A stretch of DNA of 42,842 bases from Nitrospinaceae bacterium (GTDB lineage Bacteria; Nitrospinota; Nitrospinia; Nitrospinales; VA-1). Location: the NCBI GenBank assembly GCA_023271875.1, contig JALPWY010000012.1:1-42842 (forward strand), written 5' to 3'. Below, piece by piece: positions 17,884 through 36,782 of this stretch (position 1 is the stretch's first letter; every line of letters starts with the position of its first letter). The notes beneath the pieces were generated by a model. It ran no database searches. It was not told the origin of the DNA and saw only the letters and a program-made list of their open reading frames with translations. The position numbers were made by a program, and so were the translations under genes.

Positions 17884-18816
17884 ATGACTGATCGGCTACT
17901 ATTTTTTCTTGCTATTTGTTTTTTTTCTGCGACCTCTGTGGTTTTTGCGATGCATGCTGGGGAAGAGCATAAAGAAGATTTGTTTGGAAATCTGCAGCAA
18001 CTGCAGGCAGAATCCCTCTTTGTACAATCAGATAATTCATTGATGATTCGTATCCCGGCAGGGACTTTTAAAATGGGATCGAGCTTTGAAGAAAATAAAA
18101 GGCACCTGAAAGGGTGCCGTAAGTACGACAAGTCCTGCGAGTTATGGTGGTTTAATGATGAGTATCCCGACCGACTTATTTTTCTTGATAGCTATTGGCT
18201 CGATATATATGAAGTGACCAATGAAAAATATCTTGAGTTTGTTTTAGCTACAGGACATCGTTTTGCCTTGGATCAAACTTGTGATACAGATAAATGCCGC
18301 GATGGTAACTTGTGGCAGGGGGTATCATTTTCCCCCAGAATCAAACATCAACCAGTGACACAAGTAAGTTGGCACGACGCGGATGCTTTTTGTAGATGGA
18401 GAGGTAAACGGCTTCCCTCAGAAGCGGAATGGGAAAAGGCGGCGCGAGGCCCGAGTGGAAACTTATACCCTTGGGGGAGCGGGTCACCTAAAAATCGAGC
18501 TACTTACGGGAGGAAATGGCGTGGTGTTTTCACTATGACAGATGTGGGAACGTATTCTCAAGGGACTTCTATTTATGGTGTGCATGATATGGCGGGCAAC
18601 GTTTGGGAGTGGGTCGATGATTGGTACGACTTAAAATATTATAATTGGAGACGTAAAAAAAACCCAAAAGGCCCGGCAGAAGGTGATTTTAAGGTGGTTA
18701 GAGGTGGTTCCTGGGTTAATTATCCTGATACTTTGCGTAGTTCCTTTCGAAGGTGGAGTCAACCTGAAGTAAGATTTAACGACACCGGATTCCGATGTTC
18801 CAAAGATGACAACTGA
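17884..18816 (+). CDS. Periplasmic FGE/SUMF1-fold protein #1 (lacks catalytic Cys pair)
   Basis: Signal peptide; 'RIPAGTFKMGS', 'RLPSEAEWEKAARG', 'MAGNVWEWVDDWYD', 'VVRGGSWVNYPDTLRSSFRRWSQ...GFRCSKDD'. Confidence 0.88.
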   Translation: MTDRLLFFLAICFFSATSVVFAMHAGEEHKEDLFGNLQQLQAESLFVQSDNSLMIRIPAGTFKMGSSFEENKRHLKGCRKYDKSCELWWFNDEYPDRLIFLDSYWLDIYEVTNEKYLEFVLATGHRFALDQTCDTDKCRDGNLWQGVSFSPRIKHQPVTQVSWHDADAFCRWRGKRLPSEAEWEKAARGPSGNLYPWGSGSPKNRATYGRKWRGVFTMTDVGTYSQGTSIYGVHDMAGNVWEWVDDWYDLKYYNWRRKKNPKGPAEGDFKVVRGGSWVNYPDTLRSSFRRWSQPEVRFNDTGFRCSKDDN

Positions 18817-25130: not shown

Positions 25131-25916
25131 TTAGTGAGTCCTTCCAAAAAACGTTAATCTGGCGTTTTCTGATAATTCAATGCTCTTTTGAAGGTTATAA
25201 TTCAGGGTGACAAGAACTCGGTGCTTATTTGAAGTGACAGGAGTCACTCGATGAAGATAGTTGCTTCCATAAAAAAGAACAAGCGCGCCTTCCTCGATTC
25301 GCAATTCTTTTGCAGGATGTTTATTTTGTAAAACAGAGTCTATGAGTCGGGTATTAAGAGTGTTCTTTTCTACATTACGCGCATCGACGACATATTGAAA
25401 ATTTCCCCCTGATGCGGATGATTGGATCATCAGAGTAATAGCAAATGATGCATTATCAAAATGCCACCCCAACTGTTGATGTTTCTCATAATAATTATAA
25501 TTGATAGACGACAGGGTATCAGCGTATGGGTAAATCTTCTCAACGGACAGTAACGATTGAATAAAATTTTTAAAAAAAGCAGAGTTGTAAATTGTTCTTA
25601 AGGTGGAGTTCTCTGGAATCAAGTCATGCGGGACGCAGCCTTTATCACTGACTACTGCAATATTACAGGGATGTTTATCGCCTAACTGGGTATTTTTTTT
25701 TGTAAGTAAAACATTATGATTCTGCGAACAATAAAATGCCTTGTCGTGTAATGCTTGAGCTTCTCGCTGTAGGTTAACTAAAGGTTTTTCTGCTAGGAAG
25801 TTATTTAAAATAAGTATAGAGTTTTTTTTTAACTGACTCCTGCAACGTTTGACATAGTAATTTAAATCATCTATGGGGTGGAGTTTAAAATCAATAATAT
25901 CCTGCAGATCGTTCAT
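25131..25916 (-). CDS. 2OG-Fe(II) dioxygenase related to HalD/BesD-family proteins, intact HxD
   Basis: 'LGWHFDNASFAITLMIQSSASGGNFQYVVDARN' (HxD), 'GSNYLHRVTPVTSNKHRVLVTLNYN' (distal His and Arg). Confidence 0.75.
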   Translation of the reverse strand: MNDLQDIIDFKLHPIDDLNYYVKRCRSQLKKNSILILNNFLAEKPLVNLQREAQALHDKAFYCSQNHNVLLTKKNTQLGDKHPCNIAVVSDKGCVPHDLIPENSTLRTIYNSAFFKNFIQSLLSVEKIYPYADTLSSINYNYYEKHQQLGWHFDNASFAITLMIQSSASGGNFQYVVDARNVEKNTLNTRLIDSVLQNKHPAKELRIEEGALVLFYGSNYLHRVTPVTSNKHRVLVTLNYNLQKSIELSENARLTFFGRTH

Positions 25917-27530
25917 TTAAAAATTTTTAAGAAATGCTTTTGCCTCCTTTAGCTCAGGAAAAGCGGAGTCTGCATTTTTTAAAATAGACAGGATTTGTGA
26001 ATAGTTCTCCTTAGCTGTTATTTTATCACCATCCAATTTAGCAGACCGTGCAGCACCTATTAGTGATCGAATTCGGTTTGGATGACGCGTCAAGGAGATG
26101 TTGAATTGTTCTTTGGCTTTTTTGGGTTTCCCTGCTTTAAGATAAACTTCTCCTAATAATTCGTAGGTGGGTTTAAGGATACGTGGAGGACCAGACGGCG
26201 ATGGTAGTTTTTCTTCAACCAAAGTCGCTTGTTTTGCGAGTTGAATGGCACCTTCATAATTTTTTTCATAAAGCTTCATCGCGGTTTCAATTTCCAATTC
26301 CCATACTTCTAAATATTCTGGTCGACTGAAATGGTTTTTGCGAAATCCTTTTTCCTGTATTTCTTTTAACTCTGTGGCATATTTTTTTGCTTCGTCATCT
26401 CCTTGGATAGCGGCGGCGTAGCCAAGAACAAAATTATATCCAGCCTTGGAAAAGGTTTTGGGTTCCCATCCTTCAGGGGGCACAAGTTTTTTTGCTTTTT
26501 CCCATTGCTCAGTTTCTATTATAGTGGCAGCTAACATACGATGGTAATATTTACCGGACCTTAAATTGGGATTAGGTTTGGATTTTGCTGCAGCTTGAAT
26601 TCCTTCCTCCATATCTTTTTGCTGAATTTTGAAAATAGTTTCTGCTTTGCCTCTGAGTCCCTGTTGCAGATACACATAGTGCAGCCATTGCAGGCTGTGG
26701 TAATCGCGATTACTTTTGGGTAGTTTTTCTCGTTCTACCCACTTTTTGGAGGTGGCCCAACCATTTTCGTTCGATTTTGCTGCTTCAGGCCACATGCCGA
26801 GTTGAATAAAGATATGTGCCGGCATATGCTGAGCATGATGTGATGTAGGGGCAATTTTGGCATAGCGTTGTGCGGAAGGTAAGGCAAGCCTTGCGAGATC
26901 AGGGTGATCAAACGCGTGGATTGCATAATGTGCCGCACAGGGATGATCTGGTTTTTGCTCATATATCTCTAATGCAATCGCACCGGAATCAACTTTTAGT
27001 TTTATTTTTTTTTCCGTATTTCTAGCTATTCCTAATAAGGAGAGGCTGTAAAAACATGCAGCTTCTAGATCATTTGGATATTTGGTATAAATCTTTTTCA
27101 TAGCATTTGAATAAGCTTTATCTCGAGTTATTTTTCCCCCTTCTCCGTAAAGAAGTTGGACAGCTTGAATATAGTCTTGCTCTCTTTGAGTTAACTCTGA
27201 GAGATCAGATATTTTGGACAGTGCGGCCTTGGCCGACTTAGAATCTTGTCTTTCCCAAAGCGGGGCGTTGTGAGCCATAGCCTCGCCCCAGTACCCCATA
27301 GCAAAATTAGGATCCGCTTTAGTAGAACTTTGAAATTCTCGCAAGGCTTCTGGATACCAAAAAGAATGAAGTGCCGCCACACCACTTATAAAGTGATGTT
27401 GTGCAACTCCTGATCCAGAAGTAGGAAATTCTATCTTGCCAAGTTTGGATGATGCGTGAGTTGGTTGAATAATATAACTGGCGTTAAAGCCCCCAAAAAT
27501 TATCGTAATGAAGAGTAATCGAATCATCAT
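25917..27530 (-). CDS. Tetratricopeptide-repeat protein with conserved His-rich segments, exported
   Basis: Signal-like N-terminus; 'GYWGEAMAHNAPLW', 'CAAHYAIHAFDHPDLARLALPSAQRYAKIAPTSHHAQHMPAHIFIQLGMW'; stop directly abuts the ATG of the oxygenase. Confidence 0.8.
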   Translation of the reverse strand: MMIRLLFITIIFGGFNASYIIQPTHASSKLGKIEFPTSGSGVAQHHFISGVAALHSFWYPEALREFQSSTKADPNFAMGYWGEAMAHNAPLWERQDSKSAKAALSKISDLSELTQREQDYIQAVQLLYGEGGKITRDKAYSNAMKKIYTKYPNDLEAACFYSLSLLGIARNTEKKIKLKVDSGAIALEIYEQKPDHPCAAHYAIHAFDHPDLARLALPSAQRYAKIAPTSHHAQHMPAHIFIQLGMWPEAAKSNENGWATSKKWVEREKLPKSNRDYHSLQWLHYVYLQQGLRGKAETIFKIQQKDMEEGIQAAAKSKPNPNLRSGKYYHRMLAATIIETEQWEKAKKLVPPEGWEPKTFSKAGYNFVLGYAAAIQGDDEAKKYATELKEIQEKGFRKNHFSRPEYLEVWELEIETAMKLYEKNYEGAIQLAKQATLVEEKLPSPSGPPRILKPTYELLGEVYLKAGKPKKAKEQFNISLTRHPNRIRSLIGAARSAKLDGDKITAKENYSQILSILKNADSAFPELKEAKAFLKNF

Positions 27531-27638: not shown

Positions 27639-27971
27639 ATGAAGAAAAGTAAGGATTTGTCCAGAATAAAATCAAGAAACGATATTCCCTTTGGCGCATT
27701 ATTGATGGGCACTACGGGTGTGTTGATCGGCTTAGTCGTGGATAGTGCAATGGCCATGCTTGTTGTTGGTATTTTGGGTGCTTTTATAGGGGGATTAGTA
27801 GGATGGGCTGGTGGAAGAGTTTTTCTGCTTATTATTTGTTTTGGTGTGTTGATAGGGGCATTTTTAGGTTACCGCACAGGAGATCAGGATATTCTCATTA
27901 TAGCTTCGGGAACCGGTGGAGCTATTGCCGGATTTATAGGGGCACAAGTCTCACTTTTTTTAAATAAATGA
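27639..27971 (+). CDS. Glycine-rich (Gly-zipper-like) membrane protein
   Basis: 110 aa with GxxxG-rich TM segments 'GILGAFIGGLVGWAGG', 'GTGGAIAGFIGAQV'; ATGA overlap with the next gene. Confidence 0.65.
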   Translation: MKKSKDLSRIKSRNDIPFGALLMGTTGVLIGLVVDSAMAMLVVGILGAFIGGLVGWAGGRVFLLIICFGVLIGAFLGYRTGDQDILIIASGTGGAIAGFIGAQVSLFLNK

Positions 27972-28705
27972 GTAGGATACTTTTATTATTATTGGGTAGT
28001 TTTTTTTTGTTCTCCAAAGTTTTTTTGCAAACTTCTTCTGCTTTGGAAAAATTAGCTCCTATTGGAATGGTGCTCGTCCCTGTAGGGACTTATATCGCAG
28101 GTTCAGACAAATATAACGATGAGCGACCAAGCAGAGAAATTCATTTAGATGCTTTTTTTGTTGATAGATTTGAGGTAACTCAGAAGCAATTTAAAAAAAT
28201 TATGAATATTAATCCGTCTGAATTTCGAGGAGAAAATTTACCAGTTGATCGGGTTGATTGGTACCAGGCGAGAGATTACTGTAATAAAATTGGGAAACGT
28301 TTGCCAACAGAGGCCGAATGGGAAAAGTCAGCTCGCTCAGGATCCACAGCCCAATATTACTGGGGGGATGTGCCAGACAATTCACATGCTTGGCACTGGG
28401 ACAACTCTGGTCGAAAAACTCACCCTGTGGGAGAAAAGAAACCGAACAAGTTTGGCCTGTATGATATTGCTGGAAATGTTTGGGAGTGGACCGCAGATTG
28501 GTATGATCAATACTATTACCAGACGCGCTCTTCCAGCAATCCAAAAAGCCCATTCAATGGAAAGCACAGGGTTCTTCGAGGTGGATCGTTTATGGATAAA
28601 GCAGAAGGACTACGTGTCACCCGGCGCAACTGGGATTTGCCGGGAGCCCGATTTAAAAATTTTGGATTCCGTTGTGCAAAAAATAAAAAAAGAAAAGAGA
28701 ACTAA
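27968..28705 (+). CDS. Periplasmic FGE/SUMF1-fold protein #2 (lacks catalytic Cys pair)
   Basis: 'MVLVPVGTYIAGS', 'RLPTEAEWEKSARSG', 'IAGNVWEWTADWYD', 'VLRGGSFMDKAEGLRVTRRNWDLP..GFRCAK'. Confidence 0.9.
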   Translation: MSRILLLLLGSFFLFSKVFLQTSSALEKLAPIGMVLVPVGTYIAGSDKYNDERPSREIHLDAFFVDRFEVTQKQFKKIMNINPSEFRGENLPVDRVDWYQARDYCNKIGKRLPTEAEWEKSARSGSTAQYYWGDVPDNSHAWHWDNSGRKTHPVGEKKPNKFGLYDIAGNVWEWTADWYDQYYYQTRSSSNPKSPFNGKHRVLRGGSFMDKAEGLRVTRRNWDLPGARFKNFGFRCAKNKKRKEN

Positions 28706-34749: not shown

Positions 34750-35982
34750 TTATTGCTCGATTTGGGGTGCGCTTGTTTGAATTTGTTTTTTTAGTGTGTT
34801 GAATAAGAATATCGTCGCGATAGTAATCAAAAGAAGGGAGCCAACAGCCGCTCTATATTTTAAGGTTTGGGTATCTTGAAATATCCAAACAACGCTTCCC
34901 CAAAGTAAAGGTCCTGCGATGGAAGCCATTTTCCCGGCTAGGCTGTAAATACCAAAAAACTCTCCTACTTTTTCAGGCGGAGATAGTTCGACAACGATAG
35001 CTCGGCTGGTAACCCATACCCCTCCCATGCCTACTCCGGCTAAAGGACCAACCGCCCAGAATAAGGTCTCCCCTGGACTAATTACTATTAGGGTCAGTGC
35101 TGTCAGCCAAATCCACAAAACAAGGCCATAAGAAAAGACTGTACCCTTATGCTTGACCAACCAACCGATTATCAGTGAGCCTAGCATGGCAAAAACGGTT
35201 GAAAGAATTAAAAAACTTGTTATTTGTTTGTCATCAAATCCAATCACTTTGTGTGCGTATACCGACATGAAAGCAATAATTGTATTTACAACATCAAGGA
35301 TAAGAAAGTGAACTACAAAAAACTTTAATAGAACGTGGTAATCAGAGGCGTCAGTAATTGTTTTTTTTAAGGTTTGAAAAGATTGGCCAATATCTACATA
35401 AAAAGTTTTTGGACTGAGATCTTTGACGTATAGAAAACAGGGAATGGCAAACACGAGAAACAGGATCGCCGTGGGAAGGAAGGCAGCTGATCTTCCGCCG
35501 TCGGTTACAAAAGGTTCGACTAGGGTGAGACCAGCGATAGATCCAATATAACCAAGTGCTACCCCATACCCAGAAATCATCCCAACATTTGACTGGCGGG
35601 CGACACTAGGTAGCATGCCATTGTAAAATACGAGTGCTGACTGATAACAATAATTAGCAATAACAAACAGAAGCAATCCCATCCATAACTGACTAGCCTG
35701 TCCTATAAGTGCAGTGGCAAAAACAGAAATGATAGTAAGGAGAATTAAGGGGAAACGTCGTCTACCAGTTTGATCTGAAATTGTTCCGAAAACAGGTGCG
35801 CTGATAGCGACTGCCAACATAGAACCGGAAAGAGCTATGCTGTAAAGAATATCCTCTCCGCCATGATCCACTGTGACCCATAAGGCAAAATAAAGTGAGA
35901 TCACATTCATGGAAAAAATGGTGTTGGCAAAGTCGTAAAACGCCCAAGAAGCGATAGCCCGTTTGTCGGGTCGCTCGGTCAT
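34750..35982 (-). CDS. MFS transporter, UMF1/Atg22-like
   Basis: 'RAIASWAFYDFANTIFSMNVISLYFALWV', 'FGTISDQTGRRR'; 12-TM-like pattern; ATGA overlap with the upstream gene. Confidence 0.88.
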   Translation of the reverse strand: MTERPDKRAIASWAFYDFANTIFSMNVISLYFALWVTVDHGGEDILYSIALSGSMLAVAISAPVFGTISDQTGRRRFPLILLTIISVFATALIGQASQLWMGLLLFVIANYCYQSALVFYNGMLPSVARQSNVGMISGYGVALGYIGSIAGLTLVEPFVTDGGRSAAFLPTAILFLVFAIPCFLYVKDLSPKTFYVDIGQSFQTLKKTITDASDYHVLLKFFVVHFLILDVVNTIIAFMSVYAHKVIGFDDKQITSFLILSTVFAMLGSLIIGWLVKHKGTVFSYGLVLWIWLTALTLIVISPGETLFWAVGPLAGVGMGGVWVTSRAIVVELSPPEKVGEFFGIYSLAGKMASIAGPLLWGSVVWIFQDTQTLKYRAAVGSLLLITIATIFLFNTLKKQIQTSAPQIEQ

Positions 35983-36782
35983 GGTATTGGAAGTACGGTG
36001 CGAAATCCGTAGATTTCATTTTTGATGTGGGGGCGGTTGCGCGACCGTCGAACGACTTGGACTCCATCAATACTATTTAGATAAGACCCGCCACGTAGTA
36101 CTTTATAAGTTCCGTTGCTCAAGGGCCCCTTAGGGTTTAGTTCTGGGCTGATGTGGTAGAAATCTTTGTCATACCAATCGAGACACCATTCCCAAACATT
36201 ACCGGACATATTCAGTAATCCAAATGGGCTGGCCCCTGATTCGTAATAATTTACTGGAGCGGTTTTTTTGTAATTATCATCTTCGCCGAAGACGTTTACA
36301 TAGTAGAAGAAAAACCCTTTGTCAAATTTTCGACCCCAAGGCCATAGCCTATTATCGTTTCCACGAGCCGATTTTTCCCATTCAGCCTCTGTAGGTAGTC
36401 GATGCCCTTTCCACTTTGCGTAAGCCATAGCATCTCGCCAGCTAACACCAACGACCGGGTGGTTAGGCAAATTCAGGGTTTCGTCTTCCCAGAATGTCGG
36501 TTTTGCGTATCCAGTTACTTCAATGAATTTCATATACTCTGCGTTACTGACTTCATGTTTGTCGATAAAAAATGCCTTCGTGTAGACAAAGTGAAGAGGT
36601 TTTTCATCTTCCCTTCCGGAAGAATTTCCCATAGGAAAATACCCTTCAGGGATAAAAACCATTCCAGTAGGTGGTGTCGAGTTGGGTTGGCTGTATGTTG
36701 ATAAGGGGAGATAGAGTATGAGGAAGGTGAGAAAAAAGCAGCTTAAGAATTTGGTTGATTTTGATCTGGGGTCTTCATTCAT
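35979..36782 (-). CDS. Periplasmic FGE/SUMF1-fold protein #3 (lacks catalytic Cys pair)
   Basis: Signal peptide; 'MVFIPEGYFPMGNSSGRED', 'RLPTEAEWEKSARG', 'MSGNVWEWCLDWYD', 'VLRGGSYLNSIDGVQVVRRSRNRP..YGFRTV'. Confidence 0.9.
   Translation of the reverse strand: MNEDPRSKSTKFLSCFFLTFLILYLPLSTYSQPNSTPPTGMVFIPEGYFPMGNSSGREDEKPLHFVYTKAFFIDKHEVSNAEYMKFIEVTGYAKPTFWEDETLNLPNHPVVGVSWRDAMAYAKWKGHRLPTEAEWEKSARGNDNRLWPWGRKFDKGFFFYYVNVFGEDDNYKKTAPVNYYESGASPFGLLNMSGNVWEWCLDWYDKDFYHISPELNPKGPLSNGTYKVLRGGSYLNSIDGVQVVRRSRNRPHIKNEIYGFRTVLPIP

Follow-up and report, generated by a model that had tools for sequence, protein, structure and literature searches.

The oxygenase gene at 25131-25916 of the window (the whole 42,842-nucleotide stretch of Nitrospinaceae DNA analysed here) encodes a real enzyme of the known HalD/BesD superfamily in what is an ordinary gene neighbourhood. 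With a probability of roughly two in three, we read this enzyme as a stand-alone cytoplasmic hydroxylase of a small free molecule that occurs sporadically and lies here behind an unrelated TPR gene. A bolder reading can be offered only tentatively, namely that the oxygenase founds a discrete subfamily, spread over Nitrospinota and enterobacterial megaplasmids and acting on a new amino-acid-like substrate, and that, separately, the TPR protein is one of a widespread family of exported proteins whose seven-histidine metal site is so far undescribed. The features concerned are as follows.

25131..25916, minus strand: gene for an Fe(II)/2-oxoglutarate-dependent oxygenase of the HalD/BesD superfamily (261 aa), with the HxD facial triad H152, D154, and H222 plus R233
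25917..27530, minus strand: gene for a TPR protein (537 aa) with a signal-peptide-like N-terminus and seven invariant histidines
25914..25919, minus strand: TAA/ATG junction with 0 bp from stop to start, a spacing shared by three congeneric species

Also encoded within these 43 kb are three proteins that resemble FGE-sulfatase (sulfatase-modifying factor), at 17884-18816, 27968-28705, and 35979-36782; the middle one was confirmed by Pfam and the others were recognized by eye.

The junction and the pairing of the two genes

The initial annotation described two minus-strand genes that abut without an intervening base, and the open reading frames bear this out, as the TPR stop codon directly precedes the oxygenase start (...TTT TAA/ATG AAC...). 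The same 0-bp junction occurs in two further species of the genus, G031 (TAA/ATG) and G032 (TAG/ATG), whose proteins are about 80-86% identical to those of the window, and because of this recurrence it is not an assembly accident. When compared with G031, the oxygenase gene exhibits a dN of 0.10 and a dS of 0.74, and the TPR gene a dN of 0.09 and a dS of 0.60. These ratios are far below 1 and therefore indicate purifying selection on both genes, each of which is thus real. A GGAGG-like stretch is located approximately 26 bases 5' of the oxygenase ATG, too distant for a usual Shine-Dalgarno site, which makes translation-termination coupling of the two genes possible. In the window's genus, the oxygenase is probably expressed by such coupling or by read-through from the TPR gene, and the retention of the junction in three species would also be consistent with selection acting on coupled synthesis.

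The same annotation went further and proposed a candidate module. If this were a true functional module, the histidine-rich TPR protein would bind iron or the substrate and serve the oxygenase. The conserved junction, the purifying selection on both genes, and the capacity of seven invariant histidines to bind metal all favor this proposal, but the distribution of the pair does not. A gene-neighbourhood survey had been named beforehand as a check, with a pair that is not conserved in relatives as a refuting outcome, and this outcome is largely what was found. In a set of 46 Nitrospinaceae genomes, each from a different species and many of them incomplete (so that a gene scored as absent may in some cases fall in a gap), eight carried the oxygenase and 16 a close TPR orthologue, at 57% identity or above. 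Both genes occurred in five genomes (G000, G030, G031, G032, and G037), and they were adjacent in three (G000, G031, and G032), all from the window's genus, so that pairing is not conserved across lineages. Even within this genus the arrangement is not universal: G034 has the same TPR locus and flanking genes, but there the TPR stop is followed by a small opposite-strand TPR gene, and the oxygenase is absent. In G030, the pair is split over contigs, with fragments of the TPR and oxygenase genes at contig ends, and the oxygenase is followed by an opposite-strand peroxiredoxin gene rather than the beta-propeller gene of the window. In G037, the two genes are on separate contigs.

Both genes are mostly found without each other in Nitrospinota. 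Outside the window's genus they co-occur in one genome, compared with 1.2 expected by chance, and in the g6 genomes G009 and G014 it is a Sel1-repeat gene that comes after the TPR gene. As the two genes stand apart outside the genus, they are probably neighbours by chance rather than a working pair. As a separate observation, the TPR gene overlaps its downstream Sel1-repeat gene in two g6 genomes (L045 7747-10030 and L048 2555-4829), which makes the latter a tight, lineage-specific neighbour.

The histidine-rich TPR protein

The conserved histidine clusters reported for the TPR protein, HYAIHAFDHPDLA and HHAQHMPAHIF, are both present, and their conservation extends well beyond the genus. H196, H201, H205, H232, H235, H239, and H278 are identical in all 26 TPR homologues aligned, which come from Nitrospinota, Fusobacteriota, and Pseudomonadota and belong to a TPR family with the motif HPxxxHxxIH...HxxHMPxH. 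A single canonical TPR repeat passed the Pfam cut-off (residues 456-485, in the C-terminal part), and the Pfam search returned no family beyond generic TPR models. Likewise, no solved structure covering the histidine region was found by sequence, and the structures matched by an AlphaFold2 model (pLDDT 56) were all generic TPR or helical-repeat ones, with low TM-scores. The family also occurs on plasmids from other phyla, and the four annotated records read among these lacked the oxygenase. Since the seven histidines are conserved in homologues that lack an adjoining oxygenase, they are a trait of the family and not of the pair. It is reasonable to regard them as a candidate metal site of the TPR family as a whole, independent of the oxygenase.

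The predicted locations of the two proteins also differ. The TPR protein begins with a signal-peptide-like stretch, MMIRLLFITIIFGGFNASYIIQPTHA, with a hydropathy maximum of 2.3, and most homologues with a captured N-terminus start similarly, while hydropathy revealed no such stretch in the oxygenase. To judge from these N-termini, export is predicted for the TPR protein and a cytoplasmic location for the oxygenase. If these predictions hold, the TPR protein would be outside the cytoplasm with the enzyme and its co-substrate 2-oxoglutarate inside, and a physical complex between the two is therefore judged unlikely. Given its restricted pairing and these separate predicted compartments, we consider the proposed module improbable, and favor a hydroxylase that acts on its own.

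Distribution and neighbours of the oxygenase

The oxygenase is best read as a sporadic accessory gene in Nitrospinota. Of 77 genomes from the phylum, 10 encode HalD-type proteins, and those of G049 and G054 are only very distant relatives. The window protein shares 69% identity with the oxygenase of G058, a genome from another family, as against 61% with that of G037 from the same family, and this hints at transfer or uneven loss. In a protein tree, the only fork resolved within Nitrospinota was that joining the window and G031. The oxygenase gene in G037 (contig C22; L040 8916-9623) is apparently frameshifted near its start, with residues 1-47 matching in another frame, and may be decaying or misassembled.

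A different partner might be suggested by three genomes, G002, G024, and G037, together with G058 from another family, in which the oxygenase adjoins a TrmB-like (Methyltransf_4) gene that bears a long extension. These genes are located as follows.

L037 2651-4450: extended TrmB-like gene with oxygenase adjoining
L039 62-1627: extended TrmB-like gene with oxygenase adjoining
L040 7411-8871: extended TrmB-like gene with oxygenase adjoining
L075 2419-4185: extended TrmB-like gene with oxygenase adjoining

The extended methyltransferases are approximately 490-600 aa in length, their long C-terminal extension has no convincing Pfam match, and in many genomes they accompany an ordinary, short TrmB-like gene. 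It could be argued that the extended enzyme is the real partner of the oxygenase, possibly in a step of RNA or nucleotide modification. The two genes share a strand and adjoin in four lineages of two families, with a spacing of about 40 bp in G024 and G037 and a slight overlap in G002, and the separate short gene in most genomes means that the extended form may act differently. However, Nitrospinaceae commonly have extended TrmB-like genes with no adjoining oxygenase, the TrmB-like gene of the window's own genome is on another contig and lacks one, and in G058 the two genes are about 0.8 kb apart. Enterobacterial relatives of the oxygenase have no TrmB-like neighbour either, and we regard this partnership as improbable.

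These enterobacterial relatives are plasmid proteins annotated as '2OG-Fe(II) oxygenase' or 'arpA protein' in Pantoea, Erwinia, Klebsiella, Enterobacter, Rahnella, and Yersinia. They are 43-46% identical to the window oxygenase over its full length and share its KGC, LSSxN, LGWHFDN, HRVTP, and FxGR motifs. Most of the records read carry an adjoining, divergent LysR-type regulator; no TPR gene was present beside the oxygenase relative in these or in the other plasmid records read from other phyla. In several records, further genes lie close by, coding in Pantoea and Enterobacter for an ABC substrate-binding protein and for a DUF2817 (M14-like) protein, and in Yersinia for an L-asparagine permease and a LysE exporter; the Rahnella record has GNAT neighbours. 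Genes close to more distant relatives encode an aminotransferase with an amino acid permease in Peribacillus, an aminotransferase with an ABC transporter in Rhodobacteraceae, and trimethylamine methyltransferase and Rieske-type proteins in Mesorhizobium. Searches of phage and viral contigs found no relative of the oxygenase, a literature search combining 'arpA protein' with 2-oxoglutarate found no published characterisation, and a search of the Nitrospina literature returned nothing apparently relevant by title or abstract.

Active site and substrate of the oxygenase

The proposed kinship with the HalD/BesD family was upheld by profile searches. The window oxygenase scored 56.1 bits against the Pfam HalD model (PF23169; gathering cut-off 26), a model that all 15 relatives match (E up to 0.01); the WelO5 model also matches, and 2OG-FeII_Oxy_3 is narrowly above its own cut-off. 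A profile search of the PDB returned HalB, lysine halogenases, lysine hydroxylases, BesD, and HalD at 2e-11 to 3e-6, with FrbJ as a weak additional match (0.002). The same enzymes were found with the single sequence, and this search alone gave a PKHD-type hydroxylase, at 0.026. The solved members (lysine hydroxylase, PDB 7jsd and 9oet; HalB, 7u6i; BesD, 6nie; HalD, 7u6h) can be aligned with residues ~84-247 and share the W-H-x-[D/G] and LHR motifs and a distal arginine. They are nevertheless remote, as the best solved relative scored 31 bits, and the protein is far from the BesD equivalog of NCBIfam (NF042920; 22.9 bits against a curated cut-off of 450). An AlphaFold2 model built from three sequences (pLDDT 36) was too poor for use.

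The active site is that of an Fe(II)/2-oxoglutarate oxygenase, with an H-x-D...H triad and a distal arginine. The WHFD motif occupies residues 151-154, the distal histidine is H222, and R233 is the 2-oxoglutarate-binding arginine; W151, H152, D154, G170, G171, H222, R223, and R233 are invariant in the alignment of 15 relatives. HxD is therefore the rule of the subfamily and not a peculiarity of the window gene. Solved halogenases have WHWGD at this position, and the solved lysine hydroxylase has WHWDD, which the window protein resembles in its HxD. Radical halogenases have the carboxylate ligand replaced (HxG or HxA), whereas here D154 is retained. The invariance of HxD makes hydroxylation a sound prediction, as the initial annotation had anticipated from the full facial triad, and hydroxylation would be expected of the window enzyme. 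That it halogenates its substrate despite the retained ligand is very improbable, since D154 is invariant in all relatives and solved halogenases have glycine there, even though the HalD and WelO5 models match.

With regard to the substrate, BesD contacts the lysine amine through D239, D143, and E123, and the lysine carboxylate through R77, H137, and W241 (PMC13244439). Where the profile alignment with HalB and the lysine hydroxylases runs without gaps, three of these six positions could be compared: those at -17, -3, and +3 from the first facial histidine (E123, H137, and D143 in BesD) correspond to L135, L149, and N155 in the window oxygenase. With this glutamate, histidine, and aspartate of the free-lysine pocket all replaced, lysine is judged unlikely and is probably not the substrate. 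A small free amine or amino acid would fit as a substrate class, on the basis of family kinship and the neighbour genes of distant relatives. Most likely, the molecule that the enzyme hydroxylates with O2 and 2-oxoglutarate is small, free, and similar to an amino acid, and the reaction would proceed without physical association with the apparently exported, histidine-rich TPR protein.

A 0-bp junction in a single genome is thus weak evidence for a functional module, and the invariant histidine set of the TPR family is a matter separate from the oxygenase. The known spread of the HalD/BesD fold is widened to marine Nitrospina-type bacteria, where its members are present as predicted HxD hydroxylases. 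Moreover, the enterobacterial relative is easily cloned, and the LysR regulator and transporters encoded near it could show what the substrate is.
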